From: Brevundimonas sp. EYE_349
GTDB lineage: Bacteria; Pseudomonadota; Alphaproteobacteria; Caulobacterales; Caulobacteraceae
Assembly (NCBI RefSeq): GCF_023147505.1
Contig: NZ_JAHXPB010000009.1
Location: 1 to 64,000 of the forward strand
Reading direction: 5' to 3'
Length of the DNA stretch: 64,000 nucleotides
Shown: piece after piece, positions 4,655 to 59,990 of the stretch
Layout: each line of letters begins with the position of its first letter
Position numbering within the stretch: the first letter of the stretch is position 1
Position numbers and translations under genes: made by a program
The notes under the pieces: model-generated
Told to the model about the DNA's origin: nothing
The model's database searches: none
Seen by the model: the letters and a program-made list of their open reading frames with translations, nothing else

Positions 4655-5221
4655 ATGAAGACCGCGCTTTTGATCATCGACGTCCAGCAGGCCATCCTGC
4701 AGGGCGTTGCGACGCCGGATCGACAGGCTGTAATCGATAGCGAACTCGACAGGGTCTCATCGCGCCTCGGCTGCCTAAAAGCCTCGGCCGAAGCTGCAGG
4801 AATGCCGGTTGTCCTGGTGCAACACGATGGCGACCTCGGACATCGATTGGCCGTCGGAGCCGAGGGCTGGCGCTTCAGGCCTGAAATCGCGCCCAGCGAT
4901 CAGACGATCATCGTTCACAAGCGTAGCTGCGATTCATTCCACGAAACCGATTTGCAGGCGCGGCTGGAGGAACGAGGAATCGATCGCCTGATCGTCGGCG
5001 GCTGCATGACGCAGTTCTGCGTGGACACGACCGTGCGGCGCGCCGTGTCGAACGGCTTTGACGTGGTTTTGGTCGAGGATGGTCATGCCACCTCGGATTT
5101 CGGCGTCCTGACGGCGGATCAGATCGTGGCGCACCATAATCGGCTTCTGTCAGGCTTTGACGCGGGGTCGCGGATAGTAACGGTGGCGCCAGCGGCCGCG
5201 ATCCGCGTGTCGGACAGCTAA
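4655..5221 (+). CDS. Isochorismatase-like cysteine hydrolase
   Basis: A 188-residue cysteine hydrolase of the isochorismatase/nicotinamidase superfamily. The catalytic triad is readable as Asp9 (LIIDVQQ), Lys89 (VHKRSCDSF) and Cys122 (GGCMTQFCVDTT), with the cis-peptide-like GGCMT just before it. Such enzymes hydrolyse small amides, ureas or N-carbamoyl compounds. The substrate is unknown. Base composition looks slightly less GC-rich at third positions than in the flanking genes. It ends 2 bp from the end of the convergent DUF1223 gene. Confidence 0.87.
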   Translation: MKTALLIIDVQQAILQGVATPDRQAVIDSELDRVSSRLGCLKASAEAAGMPVVLVQHDGDLGHRLAVGAEGWRFRPEIAPSDQTIIVHKRSCDSFHETDLQARLEERGIDRLIVGGCMTQFCVDTTVRRAVSNGFDVVLVEDGHATSDFGVLTADQIVAHHNRLLSGFDAGSRIVTVAPAAAIRVSDS

Positions 5222-53774: not shown

Positions 53775-56700
53775 TCAGCCCCGCGTCGCAGCCGAGGCCA
53801 GGTCGCGGATCGTGGCGTTGGCGATGGTCAATTTGGCGAACGTCCAGCCCGAGCCGGACTGTTCGATCTCGTCCACCGAGGCGCGCACGCCCTCCACCGC
53901 CGCCTGTTTGGAGCCGATCCAGGCGTCCACGGCGCCCTCGGCCGCATCCTCGCTGACGCCGACCGACGGATCGGAGGCGCCGGCGACGGCGCGGGTCAAG
54001 GCGGCCTGTTCGTTCATCAAATCCTCGATCAGGCGACGCACGGCCAGACGGTCGAAATGATCCGCAGACGGAATGGAGCCGGCGGCGGCGCGCAGACGGT
54101 CGAAATCGAAGGCCGCACCGACCTGGTGATACAGGCGCGCCATGGCCGCGACCGGCCATCCGGCCTCCTGCGCCAGGTCGCCGATGTCGGAGGCGGCGAC
54201 CAGCGGCCGCATGATGGCGATGCTGCGCACCAGATCCTCGGGCGCGCCCATGTCGGCGAAGGTCTTGACCCGCGCATCCAGCCGCCCCTGTTCGAACCGC
54301 GACAGCACCGGCGCGCCCTCGGCCTGAAGGGCGTCGGCGATGGGGCGATAGCGGTCGATCAACCCCTGGACCGAGACGCCGGTCTTGGCGCGACGGGCCA
54401 TCCAGAAGGTCTGGCGACGCAAGACCACGGCGATTTCGCGATAGAGGGCGGTCTGCGCCTCGGCCGAAATCTTCAGGTCCAGGGCGGAAACGGCGTCCCA
54501 CGCCTGGTCCAGGCGGAAGACCCGGCGCGCGGCCTCGAAGGCGATGATCAGGGCCGTGGTGTCGCATTCCGCCGAGCCGCGCAGGCGGTCGGGGAAGGTC
54601 GGGCCGCACATGTTGACGACCTCGTTGGACATGACGGTGGCGATGATTTCGCGCCGCAGCCGGTGGCTCTTCATCTCCGGCTCGAACCGGGCCAGAGCGT
54701 CGGGGAAGTAGCGAACGAGAATCTGTTCGAAGAACGGATCCTCGGGCGCGCTCGACGCCACGATCTCGTCGGACAACTCCAGCTTGGCGTAGGCCGTCAG
54801 GACCGCCAGTTCAGGGCGGGTCAGGGCGACCCCGGAAGCCATCATTTCCCTGACGCGGACGTCGTTGGGCAGGCCCTCGACCTTGCGATCCAGTTTGCCG
54901 CGCGCCGACAGCGCCTGCATGAACCGCTGCTGGGCGTCCAGGGCTCCGGCCCCTTCCGCCTGCTGCAGGGTCAGGGCCAGGGTCTGGTCGTAGTTATGCG
55001 CCAGAACCTTCAGCCCCACCTCGTCGGTCATCGAGGCCAGAAGCGGGGCGCGCTCTTCCATCGGCAGGACGCCGTTGGTCACGGCCGAGCCGACCAGGAT
55101 CTTGATGTTGACCTCGTGGTCGGAGGTGTCGACCCCGGCAGAGTTGTCGATGGCGTCGGTGTTGATGCGGCCGCCATTCAGGCCGAACACGATCCGGCCG
55201 GCCTGGGTGAAGCCCAGGTTGGCCCCCTCGCCCACCACCTTGACCCGCAGTTCGTCACCATTGATCCGCAGGGCGTCCGTGCCCTTGTCGCCGACCTGGG
55301 CGTCGGTCTCGGCGGGCGATTTCACATAGGTGCCGATGCCGCCGAGATACAGCAGTTCCGTCGGCGCCTTCAGGATGGCGCGGATCAGGCTGATCGGGTC
55401 CAGAACATCGTCTGAAATGTCCAGGGCGGCCTTGATCTGGGGCGTCAGCTGGATCGACTTGGCCGAGCGCGAGAAGACGCCGCCCCCTTCCGAGATCAGG
55501 GCCTTGTCATAGTCCTGCCAGGACGAACGCGGCAGGTCGAACAGGCGCTTGCGCTCCGTCCATCCGGTCACATGATCCGGGTTCGGATCAATGAAGATGT
55601 CGCGGTGATCGAAGGCGGCGACCAGGCGCGTGGCCTTGGACAACAGGGCGCCGTTTCCGAAGACGTCGCCGGACATGTCGCCGACGCCGACCATGGTGAA
55701 GGGTTCGGTCTGGATGTCCTTGCCCATCTCGCGGAAGTGGCGCTTGACCGCCTCCCAGGCGCCGCGCGCGGTGATGCCCATGCCCTTGTGGTCATAGCCG
55801 ACCGACCCGCCCGAGGCGAAGGCGTCGCCCAGCCAGAAGCCATAGGAGGCCGAGACGCCGTTGGCGATGTCGGAGAAGGTCGCCGTGCCCTTGTCGGCGG
55901 CGACCACCAGATAGGGATCGTCCTGCTCCCAGGCGACGACATTGGCCGGACGCACCACCGAACCATCGGCGGCGATGTTGTCGGTGATGTCCAGAAGACC
56001 GGACAGGAAGGTCCGATAGGCGCGGATGGCCTCGCCCTGGATGGCCTCGCGGTCCGTCGTGCGGGGCAGTTGCTTGGGATAGAAGCCGCCCTTGGATCCG
56101 ACCGGCACGATGACGGCGTTCTTGACCTGCTGCGCCTTCACCAGCCCCAGAACCTCTGTGCGGAAGTCGTCGCGGCGGTCGGACCAGCGCAGGCCGCCGC
56201 GCGCAACGGGGCCGAAGCGCAGGTGAACGCCCTCGACATGCGGGGCCCAGACGAAGATTTCGCGGAACGGCTTGGGCAGGGGCAGGTCCTCAAGCTCGCG
56301 CGAGGCGATCTTGATGGCGATGTGCGGCTTGGGCTGACCGTCGGCGTCCAACTGGAAATAGTTGGTGCGCTTGATCGCGCCGATCAGGGCGGCGATGCGC
56401 CGCAGCGCGCGGTCGTGGTCCAGGCTCTTCACCTCCTGGAGGAGGGCGGCGATCTTGCCTTCAAGCTCGGCGACGGCCGAAGCGCGGTCGTCGGCCGATC
56501 CGCCGACGGCCGGTTCGAACTTGGCCTTGAACAGCGACAGCAGGGCGCGGGCCACGTCGGGATACTCGCGCAGCGCCTCTTCCTGCACGGTCTGGGACGG
56601 ATCGAGGCCTGTCTGCTGGCGATAGTGGGCCAGGGTGCGGATCAGGGCCGCCTCGCGCCATTCGACGCCCAGTTCGACCACCAGACGATTGAAGCCGTCG

Positions 56701-58640
56701 CTCTCGTTGCGGCCGGTCCAGACGGCGGCGAAGGCGTCCTCGAACGGCCCCTTCACATCGTCGAAGACCAGGGCCTCGCCGCGCGGATCCTCCATCAGGA
56801 ACTCATGGATGTGGATCTCGGTGTCGCCCAGCGGACGGATGGCGTTGCCATATTCCTCCAGCGTCTTCAGGCCCATGTCGGCCAGGATCGGCAGAACGTC
56901 GGACAAGGGCACGGCCGAGCCGCGACGATACAGTTTGAAGCGGAACTGCAGGCGGCTGTCGTCCGGGTTGCGGAAGGCGCGCACGGCGACGGGCTCCCCC
57001 TCCCCCGGCGCGCCGGTGTCGTTCAACCGGGTCATGAACTGCAGGTCCACCGCCGCCTCGTCGGCGTCGTAGCGGTCGCGGTAGCCCGCGCCGAAGGCCC
57101 GCGCCCATTTGGCGCTGACCGGCCCGACCGAAACCTCTTCCACCCCCGAACGGCGCAGGCCCGCCTCGAAGCGATCGACCCAACCGCGACCCGCCTCGGC
57201 CACGTCGGCCTCCAGCTGGACCGGATCGGGGACCGGGTGATCGCCGGGCGTCACGCCGATGATGTAGTGAACGCGCACCAGGGGCGCGTCGGACAGTTGC
57301 GGATACCAGGCCGAGATACGGCCGCCCCAGGCGCGGGCGACGATCTGGCCGATGCGCTCGCGCACCGCCGCGTCGAACTTCTCGCGCGGGATGAAGCACA
57401 GCACCGAAACGAAGCGGTCGAACGGATCCTGGCGCGAGAACAGGCGAATGCGCGGCCGGTCATACAGATGCAGTATGCCCAGGGCGATGGACAGCAGTTC
57501 GTCCTCGCTGATCTGGAAAAGCTCGTCGCGAGGATAGTTCTCCAGAATGTTCTTCAGGCGTTTTTCGTTGTGGCTGCCCGGCGCCTTGTCCGCGCGGGCC
57601 AGGGCGTTGGCCACCTTGCGGCGCAGCAGCGGCACCTCGGTCGCCAACTGGTCGTAGGCCTCGGACGTGAACAGGCCGACGAAGCGGGTTTCGCCCGTCG
57701 CCTTGCCGTCCGCGCCGTAACGCTTGACCCCGACGTAGTCCATGTAAGCCCGGCGATGCACGCGCGAGCGGGCGTTGGCCTTGGCCACCGTGACCGGCTC
57801 CGACAGATCCAGCTGGCGGCGCATCTGGTGCGTCAGGACCGCGGGCTCGGACGCGCGGCGCAGCACGGTGCGCTCGGGGTCCGCCAGTATGCCAAGGCCC
57901 TGGCCGGACTGGCTGAGAGGCGCCTCGGCCTCGTAGTCGCCGTTGGCGGTGCGCGGATAGTCGTAGTCGCGCGCGCCCAGGAAGACGAAATGGTCGCTCT
58001 TCAGCCATTTCAGGAAGGCGATGTTCTCGTCCAGCACCGCCTGATCGACGGCCGAGGGCGGGGTGGTCTCCAGACGCTGGACCGCTTGGCGCATCAGGCC
58101 CGTCATGGCCTCGTGGTCGGCGACGGCGGCGTGGACGTCGGCCAGGCTCTGGGCCAGGCCCTCGCCCAGGACGTCGCGACGCTCCTGCGGCACGCTGTCG
58201 ATGACCAGCATGATGATCGACAGGCGACGACCGTCCAGATCGACCACCGGGTGGAACAGGGCGCGCACCGAGACGGCGGCCTCGGCCAGGGCGCCCATGA
58301 CGCTGTCGACCAGGAAGGGGGCGTCCGCCTGGACGATGCGGACCAGGTCATAGTCCAGCGCCTTGCCGTCCACCCCATGCATCGGACCGACAGTGATGGC
58401 CGGGGCCGTCGCTTCGGCGCCATAGGCCCTGGCCGCCGTCCAGGACGCGGCCAGCAGGGCGGCCAGGTCCTCGCCGCCCAGTTCGGGCGTCTCGTCAGCG
58501 GCGTAATCCTCGTACGCCTGGGCCAGATAGACCTTCTCCGTCGCGCCGGGCCCGGTTCCGACGATCCGGGCGAAGGCCGCCTCCAACGCGGCCTCGGTGA
58601 TCGGCTGGACGACGGGTTGGCGCAGATCGGGGGCGGTCAT
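53775..58640 (-). CDS. gdhZ: NAD-dependent glutamate dehydrogenase, large (GdhZ type)
   Basis: A 1621-residue LGDH that converts glutamate to 2-oxoglutarate and ammonia. The N-terminal half has ACT-like regulatory domains; the catalytic part has [46 protein letters not shown] and the NAD site [15 protein letters not shown]. In Caulobacter the orthologue GdhZ also inhibits FtsZ, tying metabolism to division. The ATG at 58640 was preferred to an upstream ATG at 58703 because alignment to the family starts there. Three regulatory-looking elements lie upstream. Confidence 0.95.
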   Translation of the reverse strand: [1621 protein letters not shown]

Positions 58641-58693
58641 GGACGAGCAGTCTCGAACAACGCGGCGGGGCCGCTGGAGAAGCGGCGCGACGT

Positions 58694-58703
58694 GGCGCCA
58701 CAA
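58694..58703. repeat. GGCGCCACAA direct repeat, gene-proximal copy
   Basis: GGCGCCACAA occurs here and again at 58791-58800, 97 bp apart, on either side of the large palindrome upstream of gdhZ. This copy is part of the perfect 10-bp palindrome GTGGCGCCAC (58692-58701). The other copy is part of TTGTG-N6-CACAA. A pair of binding sites for one regulator is possible. Confidence 0.4.
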
Positions 58704-58746
58704 CTGCTGACTAGGCCAGGACCGGTCGCGCGGGAAGCCCCTGGCG

Positions 58747-58768
58747 ACCGATCATTGTAATGATCGGT
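58747..58768. promoter_or_regulatory. Perfect palindrome upstream of gdhZ
   Basis: Two 10-bp arms, ACCGATCATT and AATGATCGGT, are perfectly complementary around a 2-bp centre (GT). The centre lies about 117 bp upstream of the gdhZ ATG. The size and symmetry fit a dimeric repressor operator, for example a TetR-family site; no regulator gene is adjacent and the identity is not known. Confidence 0.6.
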
Positions 58769-58799
58769 GATAAGCTTGGAATTATTGTGCGGCGCCACA

Positions 58800-58925
58800 A
58801 AGCAGAAAGCCGCCGGACTGGGGGAGTCCGGCGGCCTGCGCGAGCGGCGCCTGGAGGGGAGGGGAGGGCGCCGATCTCGCTTCGCTGCGGTACGGAGGGG
58901 GGGTGTCCCGCAGCTTCGAACTGGG
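58800..58925 (-). ncRNA. Candidate small RNA with three C-rich-loop hairpins
   Basis: Read on the minus strand, three perfect stems follow one another: GCTGCGG/CCGCAGC (58914-58908 with 58890-58884) with loop containing CCCCCCCTCC; CGGCGCC/GGCGCCG (58873-58867 with 58851-58845) with loop CTCCCCTCCCCTCCA; and the 11-bp terminator stem with loop CCCCC and a T-rich tail. The first two loops are complementary to Shine-Dalgarno sequences, as in several alphaproteobacterial anti-SD small RNAs. No coding frame fits the region. The 5' end and promoter are not defined. On the plus strand the same bases form G-runs that could make a G-quadruplex. Confidence 0.45.
58806..58835 (-). terminator. Intrinsic terminator on the minus strand
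   Basis: On the minus strand, GCCGCCGGACT and AGTCCGGCGGC form a perfect 11-bp stem around CCCCC, followed by TTTCTGCTTT. The neighbouring gene at higher coordinates is on the plus strand, so this terminator has no protein gene to serve; that is the main reason to suspect an RNA gene. Confidence 0.75.
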
Positions 58926-59087
58926 AGATGGGAAGGCCGTTTCGCCGTTCAAGGGCGCGCGCGCGCGATTTTTCGCGACATTTTGGCCCCGCCGCGCGGC
59001 GGCCTGAAACACGCCACGGCGCAGACAACGGATTTCAGTGTTAAGCGTTGATCGCGTTCAAAGGTGAAGCTGGAGCACCGGGTCGAT

Positions 59088-59990
59088 ATGCGTCGATTTA
59101 TCATGGGGTCCATCGTCGCGGCGGTGATCGGCCTGATGCTCGCGGGCGCGGGCTATTGGGCCTATTGGAACTTCTATTCCAGGTTCCAGCCCGTCACGAT
59201 CAGCCGCAATCCCGGCGAGGTGCAGAGGCTGCTGGACGAGGCGTCCTGGGTGTCGGACGGCAGCGGGGGCCAGCCGCTCTACATCGTCACCTATCGCGAC
59301 AGCGCGTCCGGGCATCGCTATCTGCGTGACGAGGCGCCCAAGCTGAAGGCGGCGGGGGTAGAGACCCGGTTCATCCTGTTCGCCCGGCCCGATGCCGAGG
59401 GGACGCCGCGGTCCACCGCCGCCGAACGGGCCACGGTCGCCGAGCTTTGGCTGAGCCGGGACTGGCCGCTTTACGAACGCTGGATGGCCACCCCGTCCAG
59501 CAGTTGGACCGCCGCCGGCCTGCCCCAGGCGGACGGCAATCTGGCGCGCTCGGCCGTGGTCGAGGCCGGGCGCCGGTTCGACGAACAGCTAGGCCGGTTG
59601 CTGCGCGAGTCCGGGGTCAAGCTCAGCTATCCGCTGATCCTGTGGCGCGACAGGGACGGATTTCTGAAGGCCTGCGGCTGCGCCGACAGCCGGGCCTGGG
59701 CCTTCATCCGCGACGACGTCGGGGCCCCGGATCGACTGGGCGCGCCGAACAACGAGGCGCCAGGGCCCGACGAAGACCAGATCGCGCCGCAAGGCGCGAC
59801 GTCGGCCATGCCCTATCCCGACCTGCCCGCCATTCCGCCGGTCGATGCGCCAAACCGATCGCCCGTCGCACCGCCCGCCCAGGCGCAGAACCCGACACAC
59901 ACGCCGACCAGGCCATCGTCCCCATCCTCACGACCCTCCCCGCGCGCGGCGCCGGCGCCGACCCAGCAGGAAGACACCACCTTCTACTGA
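59088..59990 (+). CDS. Membrane-anchored thiol-motif protein of unknown function
   Basis: A 300-residue protein that I do not recognise. A membrane segment lies near residues 5-25 (MGSIVAAVIGLMLAGAGYWAYW). The middle has a thioredoxin-like layout, PLYIVTYRDSASGHRYL, YPLILWRDRDGFLKACGCAD with a CxC pair, and the last 75 residues are Pro/Thr/Ser-rich low complexity. A GTG eight codons upstream is an alternative start. A T4SS/DsbC-like thiol domain is possible. It abuts the convergent aminotransferase-like gene. Confidence 0.7.
   Translation: MRRFIMGSIVAAVIGLMLAGAGYWAYWNFYSRFQPVTISRNPGEVQRLLDEASWVSDGSGGQPLYIVTYRDSASGHRYLRDEAPKLKAAGVETRFILFARPDAEGTPRSTAAERATVAELWLSRDWPLYERWMATPSSSWTAAGLPQADGNLARSAVVEAGRRFDEQLGRLLRESGVKLSYPLILWRDRDGFLKACGCADSRAWAFIRDDVGAPDRLGAPNNEAPGPDEDQIAPQGATSAMPYPDLPAIPPVDAPNRSPVAPPAQAQNPTHTPTRPSSPSSRPSPRAAPAPTQQEDTTFY

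Follow-up and report, generated by a model that had tools for sequence, protein, structure and literature searches.

A conserved, gdhZ-linked candidate small RNA with ar14-like anti-Shine-Dalgarno loops in Caulobacteraceae

GdhZ ties glutamate and nitrogen metabolism to cell division in Caulobacter. The question raised by the gdhZ locus of Brevundimonas sp. EYE_349 is what the minus strand ahead of this gene encodes. An earlier note on the window (the whole stretch of DNA analyzed, 64,000 nucleotides of contig NZ_JAHXPB010000009.1) had proposed an anti-Shine-Dalgarno small RNA composed of three perfect hairpins, which it could not match to a known RNA. The reading that we favor, with a probability of about 0.78, is an independent Caulobacteraceae small-RNA gene with its own promoter and terminator, whose loops would block the ribosome-binding sites of several mRNAs. 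The features of the locus are collected in Table 1.

Table 1. Features of the candidate small-RNA locus and its neighbors (window coordinates)
Feature	Position	Strand	Remarks
Predicted small RNA, about 115 nt	58802..58917	-	Start from promoter spacing, end from terminator
Hairpin 1	58884..58914	-	10-bp arms, one G-A mismatch, outer 7 bp perfect
Loop 1 ACCCCCCCTCC	58894-58904	-	Anti-Shine-Dalgarno core CCUCC
Hairpin 2	58845..58873	-	7 bp
Loop 2 CTCCCCTCCCCTCCA	58852-58866	-	CCUCC twice
Hairpin 3, intrinsic terminator	58807..58837	-	Perfect 11-bp GC-rich stem, extended to 13; loop CCCCC; T-rich tail
-35 like element TTGAAC	58947..58952	-	TTG(A/C)-type, common to 59/62 distinct homologues
-10 like element CCATCT	58926..58931	-	CYATCT-type, same 59/62
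gdhZ, NAD-dependent glutamate dehydrogenase	53775..58640	-	PF05088, 826.7 bits; start codon chosen by us
308-aa protein gene	59064-59990 (start 59064/59088)	+	No Pfam match

The minus strand holds three hairpins, but they are not all perfect as had been claimed, because hairpin 1 contains a mismatch. The identification of the third hairpin as a terminator held. It is the sole terminator-like site detected in 58500-59300, where shuffles gave a mean of 0.5; its U-tail (UUUCUGC) is imperfect. The C-rich loops described in the earlier note are likewise present, with CCUCC, which is complementary to the Shine-Dalgarno core GGAGG, read in both hairpins 1 and 2. The 123-nt minus-strand sequence folds with an energy of -62.5 kcal/mol (z = -5.1), which none of 200 shuffles equaled. 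From the end of the terminator to the likely ATG of gdhZ (58640) we measured about 160-170 nt, in agreement with the 160 nt given previously. Between the terminator and gdhZ lies a 10-bp inverted repeat, ACCGATCATT/AATGATCGGT, at 58747-58768, which is possibly a gdhZ operator; repeats resembling TGAACACTGTTCA or TGATCACTGATCA are found at a comparable position in several close relatives. The inverted-repeat region is flanked by a direct repeat, GGCGCCACAA, at 58694-58703 and 58791-58800, and in a read-through transcript the latter copy could base-pair with hairpin 2 at its 3′ arm.

The named gdhZ loci closest to that of the window are likewise from Brevundimonas. BLASTN with 171 bases gave matches at E ≤ 1e-5 in 39 of 121 genus genomes, including the genome of origin, and BLASTN matches were noted in 32 of 80 gdhZ loci, among them L040, L044, and L054. 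A sequence-only alignment of the window and 15 selected gdhZ loci (A1, n = 16) was used to construct covariance model R1, which was searched against 79 sources at a threshold of E ≤ 1; counts were made by hand from the result table, and L040, L044, and L054 were excluded from the 77-locus count as near-duplicates. This search with a model of the stems, which the earlier note had suggested, detected the element upstream of gdhZ and on the gdhZ strand in 73/77 gdhZ loci, 51 of them at ≥48 bits. The palindromic terminator also produces weaker opposite-strand matches, the best with 32.7 bits, at many of these positions. The four loci lacking a match are L066, whose sequence starts within gdhZ, L075, which starts about 1.2 kb ahead of gdhZ, and L085 and L107, which look like true absences. 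In L075, the end of an outer-membrane barrel gene precedes gdhZ. Two of the 73 matches (L065 and L110) are at contig ends, and L065, where the minus-strand match outscores the other, looks like an assembly artefact.

In a search of 149 family genomes, 23 of the 24 listed genus genomes contained a match at E ≤ 3.5e-5. The genome of origin has one strong copy (99 bits with R1), the next best matches scoring 33.4 and 31.2 bits; an Rfam scan of six R1 loci and six other loci returned tRNAs and sub-threshold matches, and no ar14 at E ≤ 0.5. When genome loci with R1 scores of ≥45 bits were examined by TBLASTN, gdhZ was found within the fetched 3 kb in 18 of 19, the exception being L180 (48.8 bits, from another genus). 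Matches of model R2 at 43-52 bits occur in stretches fetched without gdhZ (L180, L183, and L210-L214), so scores in that range are not specific alone. The locus L019 (29.1 bits with ar14; genus genome G083, missed by R1 and R2) is without gdhZ and looks unrelated.

The Caulobacter/Phenylobacterium set comprises 21 loci (L097-L118 without L101; 19 so named and two Caulobacteraceae). R2 detected an upstream, same-strand match in 20 of them, with none in L107, at 24-45 bits, scores that are not specific taken singly; the weaker form of the RNA in Caulobacter and Phenylobacterium is recognized by its constant place and strand. By eye, a CTATCT element is often seen farther up in these loci, together with one more C-rich hairpin. 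An extra C-rich hairpin between promoter and model match, giving a four-hairpin form, was also seen by eye in L093, L099, and other Caulobacteraceae gdhZ loci. Beyond the family, gdhZ was found in 16 of 30 selected class genomes, and R2 gave a single upstream, same-strand match at those gdhZ loci: L196 (33.6 bits), from another family of the same order, with one C-rich hairpin and a terminator. A weak 24.8-bit match lies behind gdhZ in L201, and Rfam found no ar14 in the seven class gdhZ loci scanned. Among 150 order genomes, 16 had R2 matches at E ≤ 0.001: 12 from the genus (13 listed), two from other family members, and two from another family.

Paired substitutions were counted in alignment A3, consisting of 65 matches at E ≤ 1e-5 from 65 sources, selected among strong matches, of which 62 are distinct. 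Since A3 had been aligned with the structure of the model as a guide, we repeated the count in the sequence-only A1. Across the 62 distinct A3 sequences, substitutions at both positions, with pairing kept, are seen for 21 of 25 base pairs, and 97.8% of cells are paired; none of 500 shuffles reached the observed values. In A1, both positions have been substituted in 11 of 25 pairs, and 95.7% of cells are paired (0/500 shuffles; 2/500 for pair types). The best-kept helix is the terminator stem, with 99.2% of cells paired in A3. The earlier note had named a lack of paired substitutions among relatives as evidence against the RNA, and the outcome was the opposite. Read as the minus strand, the alignment contains 88 G-U cells versus 10 A-C cells, indicating that pairing is preserved as minus-strand RNA. 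The distance between hairpins 1 and 3 is spread over all three frames (28, 22, and 12), which makes a conserved reading frame through the element unlikely. CCUCC is present in loop 1 in 61/62 sequences, in loop 2 in 60/62, and in both in 59/62, against means of about 21 and 27 for shuffled loops 1 and 2, respectively; it is found in 0/62 terminator loops and in 0/62 for the two linkers. The longer motif CCCCUCC occurs in 57/62 sequences in loop 1 and 57/62 in loop 2. As judged by comparative sequence analysis, the element is a conserved RNA gene.

The same data bear on the plus strand, which reads GGAGGGGAGGGGAGGG and which the earlier note had considered capable of forming a G-quadruplex in the leader of the plus-strand gene at 59088. 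That gene (start 59064/59088) was recognized in 9/80 gdhZ loci, all of them close relatives, versus the much wider occurrence of the RNA; the substitutions follow minus-strand pairing, and the stems covary although a quadruplex needs no stems. The G-quadruplex proposal is therefore extremely improbable, whereas the minus-strand anti-Shine-Dalgarno small RNA predicted in the same note is strongly supported by the paired substitutions, the G-U strand bias, the CCUCC loops, and the promoter-like elements upstream.

The promoter-like elements have the layout TTGAAC-N15-CCATCT in the window. A TTG(A/C)-N15/16-CYATCT-like pattern, picked after inspection of the sequences, is present in 59 of 62 distinct 60-base stretches upstream of hairpin 1 and leaves 3-11 bases between its end and the start of the model. 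After shuffling, the stretches matched the pattern 0.85 times on average, with a maximum of 4; control counts in four windows located farther upstream were 0/62, 1/62, 0/62, and 1/60. The three exceptions contain, by eye, CTATCT or CTATAT farther up, ahead of an extra C-rich hairpin. Many relatives have a C-rich -10 element, and a strict sigma-70 consensus scan of 58500-59300 found no promoter. A sigma-EcfG promoter was rejected, since no exact copy of GGAAC-N17-GTT was found near the element at the one spacing scanned; sites with one mismatch are near chance in the window (43 versus 33 expected).

The constant neighbor of the RNA is gdhZ, and it could be argued that the element is a 5′ leader or attenuator of gdhZ, in which hairpin 3 would stop or pass the polymerase and the C-rich hairpins would sense a signal in cis. 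All 73 R1 matches are consistent with this arrangement, as are the position of the terminator between promoter and gdhZ and the RNA end lying ≤300 nt from the gdhZ match in 34 of 46 distinct loci; in addition, a longer RNA from the window has an alternative fold, in which the 3′ arm of hairpin 2 pairs with 58791-58798. However, an attenuator should lie directly ahead of gdhZ in all relatives, and in 12 of the 46 distinct loci (L060, L061, L062, L068, L079, L084, L087, L088, L089, L091, L095, and L101) the RNA is >1 kb (1.1-1.3 kb) from the gdhZ match. In the three of these that were inspected (L088, L095, and L101), an outer-membrane barrel gene lies between the RNA and gdhZ, and an AI-2E-type transporter gene lies upstream; Pfam matches back the barrel assignment in L088 and L101 and, in L101, also that of the transporter, and the remaining assignments were made by likeness. 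The distance and the intervening gene indicate that the RNA is probably no gdhZ leader. Two further features speak against a cis function, namely, that the terminator stem is the best-kept helix and that the loops keep an anti-Shine-Dalgarno core that a cis leader does not need. We consider the leader explanation unlikely; the RNA most likely constitutes a separate gene.

A scan of 2.4 kb around the element against 4227 Rfam families identified ar14 (RF02344) as the best match, at the same place and over the full length of the model (1-123), with 32.3 bits and an E value of 0.0012, below the gathering score of 58.8; no other alphaproteobacterial RNA family among the 4227 matched. The element, which the earlier note could not match to a known RNA, thus has a full-length but sub-threshold match in ar14. 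The ar14 model also matches at the same place in five of six relatives' loci scanned (33.7-43.7 bits; none in L073). Weak ar14 matches mean little, since nine of 14 control genomes have one at E ≤ 10. The initial filtering in the ar14 genome searches loses weak matches, and the searches of control, family, and class genomes missed the window element, so that their counts are minimum values. No match over the cut-off was seen in the 99 family genomes. Among 190 class genomes, at least six had a match at E ≤ 1e-4, all of them below the cut-off; gdhZ is in none of the seven loci concerned, of which R2 recognizes five at E ≤ 0.1, with 23-35 bits. Matches to ar14 of 29.8-34.2 bits are found away from gdhZ in L016, L017, L018, and L020. 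Tandem ar14-like copies are present in L186/L192 (G269), at 56.9 and 52.9 bits, just below the cut-off. In L210 (1501-1629, minus strand), from another family of the order, there is a C-rich multi-hairpin RNA with 40.1 bits to ar14 and no gdhZ in the fetched 3 kb.

The founder of ar14 is NfeR1/Smr14C2 of Sinorhizobium meliloti, which is nitrogen-responsive, is repressed by NtrC, and silences ntrB via CCUCCUCCC loops (PMC10746234; PMC7143759). PMC7143759 gives six ar14 copies in S. meliloti and describes ar14 RNAs proper from Rhizobiaceae, Brucellaceae, and Phyllobacteriaceae. The Brevundimonas element resembles ar14 in having three hairpins, the last a terminator, in its predicted length (about 115-125 nt for this type), in its C-rich anti-Shine-Dalgarno loops on variable stems, and in a candidate sigma-70-type promoter directly upstream; compared with the ar14 promoter CTTAGAC-N17-CTATAT, this candidate has a similar layout and a weaker consensus, and the strict scan was negative. 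It differs in the loop motif: ar14 has identical CCUCCUCCC in all three loops, whereas CCUCCUCCC occurs in 0/62 homologues (loops 1 and 2), where the motif is CCCCUCC, is confined to two loops, and leaves the terminator loop without CCUCC. It differs also in copy number, with one strong, gdhZ-linked copy versus six in S. meliloti. Our designation for the RNA is ar14-like ('cuckoo'-type) anti-Shine-Dalgarno small RNA; we regard it as a Caulobacteraceae variant that is linked to gdhZ and distinct from ar14 proper. Because ar14 stems vary freely, the resemblance may reflect either common descent or convergence.

Cuckoo RNAs, as described by Reinkensmeier and Giegerich, have two to four hairpins, variable stems, and a conserved loop motif. 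The hairpin number and the loop motif agree with this description, with four hairpins seen by eye in some Caulobacter and Phenylobacterium, but the terminator stem is well conserved in sequence and less variable than the definition suggests. Two kinds of small RNA of Caulobacter were compared and rejected by location. GsrN, whose exposed cytosine-rich loop is thought to bind G-rich mRNA sites (PMC5869019), is likewise a Caulobacteraceae small RNA with a C-rich loop; its homologues typically sit close to general-stress genes, though not in C. crescentus itself, and carry a sigma-EcfG promoter, whereas the neighbor here is gdhZ and the promoter is sigma-70-like. The aR8 RNAs SisA-D share a common anti-Shine-Dalgarno motif, and SisA represses many mRNAs (PMC12559287). 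The window element has such a motif too, but aR8 is in most species beside an N-formylglutamate amidohydrolase gene, and neither neighbor here is one.

In the mechanism that we consider most likely, a sigma-70-like promoter belonging to the RNA gene (minus strand, 58952-58926) would drive transcription, with hairpin 3 ending the transcript at about 115 nt. Two stable stems would display the C-rich loops with their CCUCC core, and these interchangeable loops would pair in trans with several mRNAs at the ribosome-binding site and keep them from being translated, on the model of the NfeR1/ar14 RNAs in rhizobia. The gdhZ mRNA makes a poor target: its likely start lacks a Shine-Dalgarno sequence, and pairing with this start is weak for loop 2 (-3.0) and modest for loop 1 (-7.9 kcal/mol). 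For 51 crudely called window genes with poor starts, duplex energies averaged -10.5 at starts versus -7.9 inside genes, a difference to which we attach no weight. A search with an ntrC model toward ntrB covered 27 loci, in which no match reached the model cut-off and starts were miscalled.

The RNA might instead bind a protein or another small RNA as a sponge or decoy. Repeated identical loops are typical of protein-titrating RNAs. RNA-RNA traffic of the sponge type also exists in the family, as CrfA of C. crescentus acts as a sponge on SisA-D, which are anti-Shine-Dalgarno RNAs (PMC12559287). Against this, the conserved CCCCUCC of each loop contains a ribosome-binding-site complement, and we regard a sponge or decoy function as improbable and pairing with mRNAs as the preferred reading.

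A parallel between nitrogen-responsive NfeR1 and an RNA linked to gdhZ is suggestive only. By this analogy, we put forward tentatively, as a doubtful but real possibility, that the gdhZ-linked counterpart of NfeR1 answers to nitrogen state and lowers a set of nutrient and nitrogen mRNAs via its two CCCCUCC loops, which would tie glutamate metabolism and, through GdhZ, cell division to a small RNA. If true, this would be a small RNA tied to cell division in the same bacterial family as the standard cell-cycle model. What is structurally firm is an RNA that Caulobacteraceae keep next to gdhZ, either a relative of ar14 or a look-alike; an alignment, a model, a candidate promoter, and loop mutations are at hand for a bench test near the model organism.

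The literature examined contained nothing joining gdhZ, a small RNA, and Caulobacter, and among the titles retrieved on Brevundimonas small RNAs, Caulobacterales Shine-Dalgarno small RNAs, and NfeR1 with Caulobacter, none concerned a gdhZ-linked RNA. The conserved place may help to put a name to a Caulobacter small RNA that is so far unassigned. Given the numbering (R0095 at 4950, R0100 at 165492) and the place of gdhZ, we take CCNA_R0096-R0099 to be the candidate counterparts in C. crescentus; the main text of two further papers gave no position. PMC11005374 lists R0097 and R0098 among the Hfq-bound RNAs.
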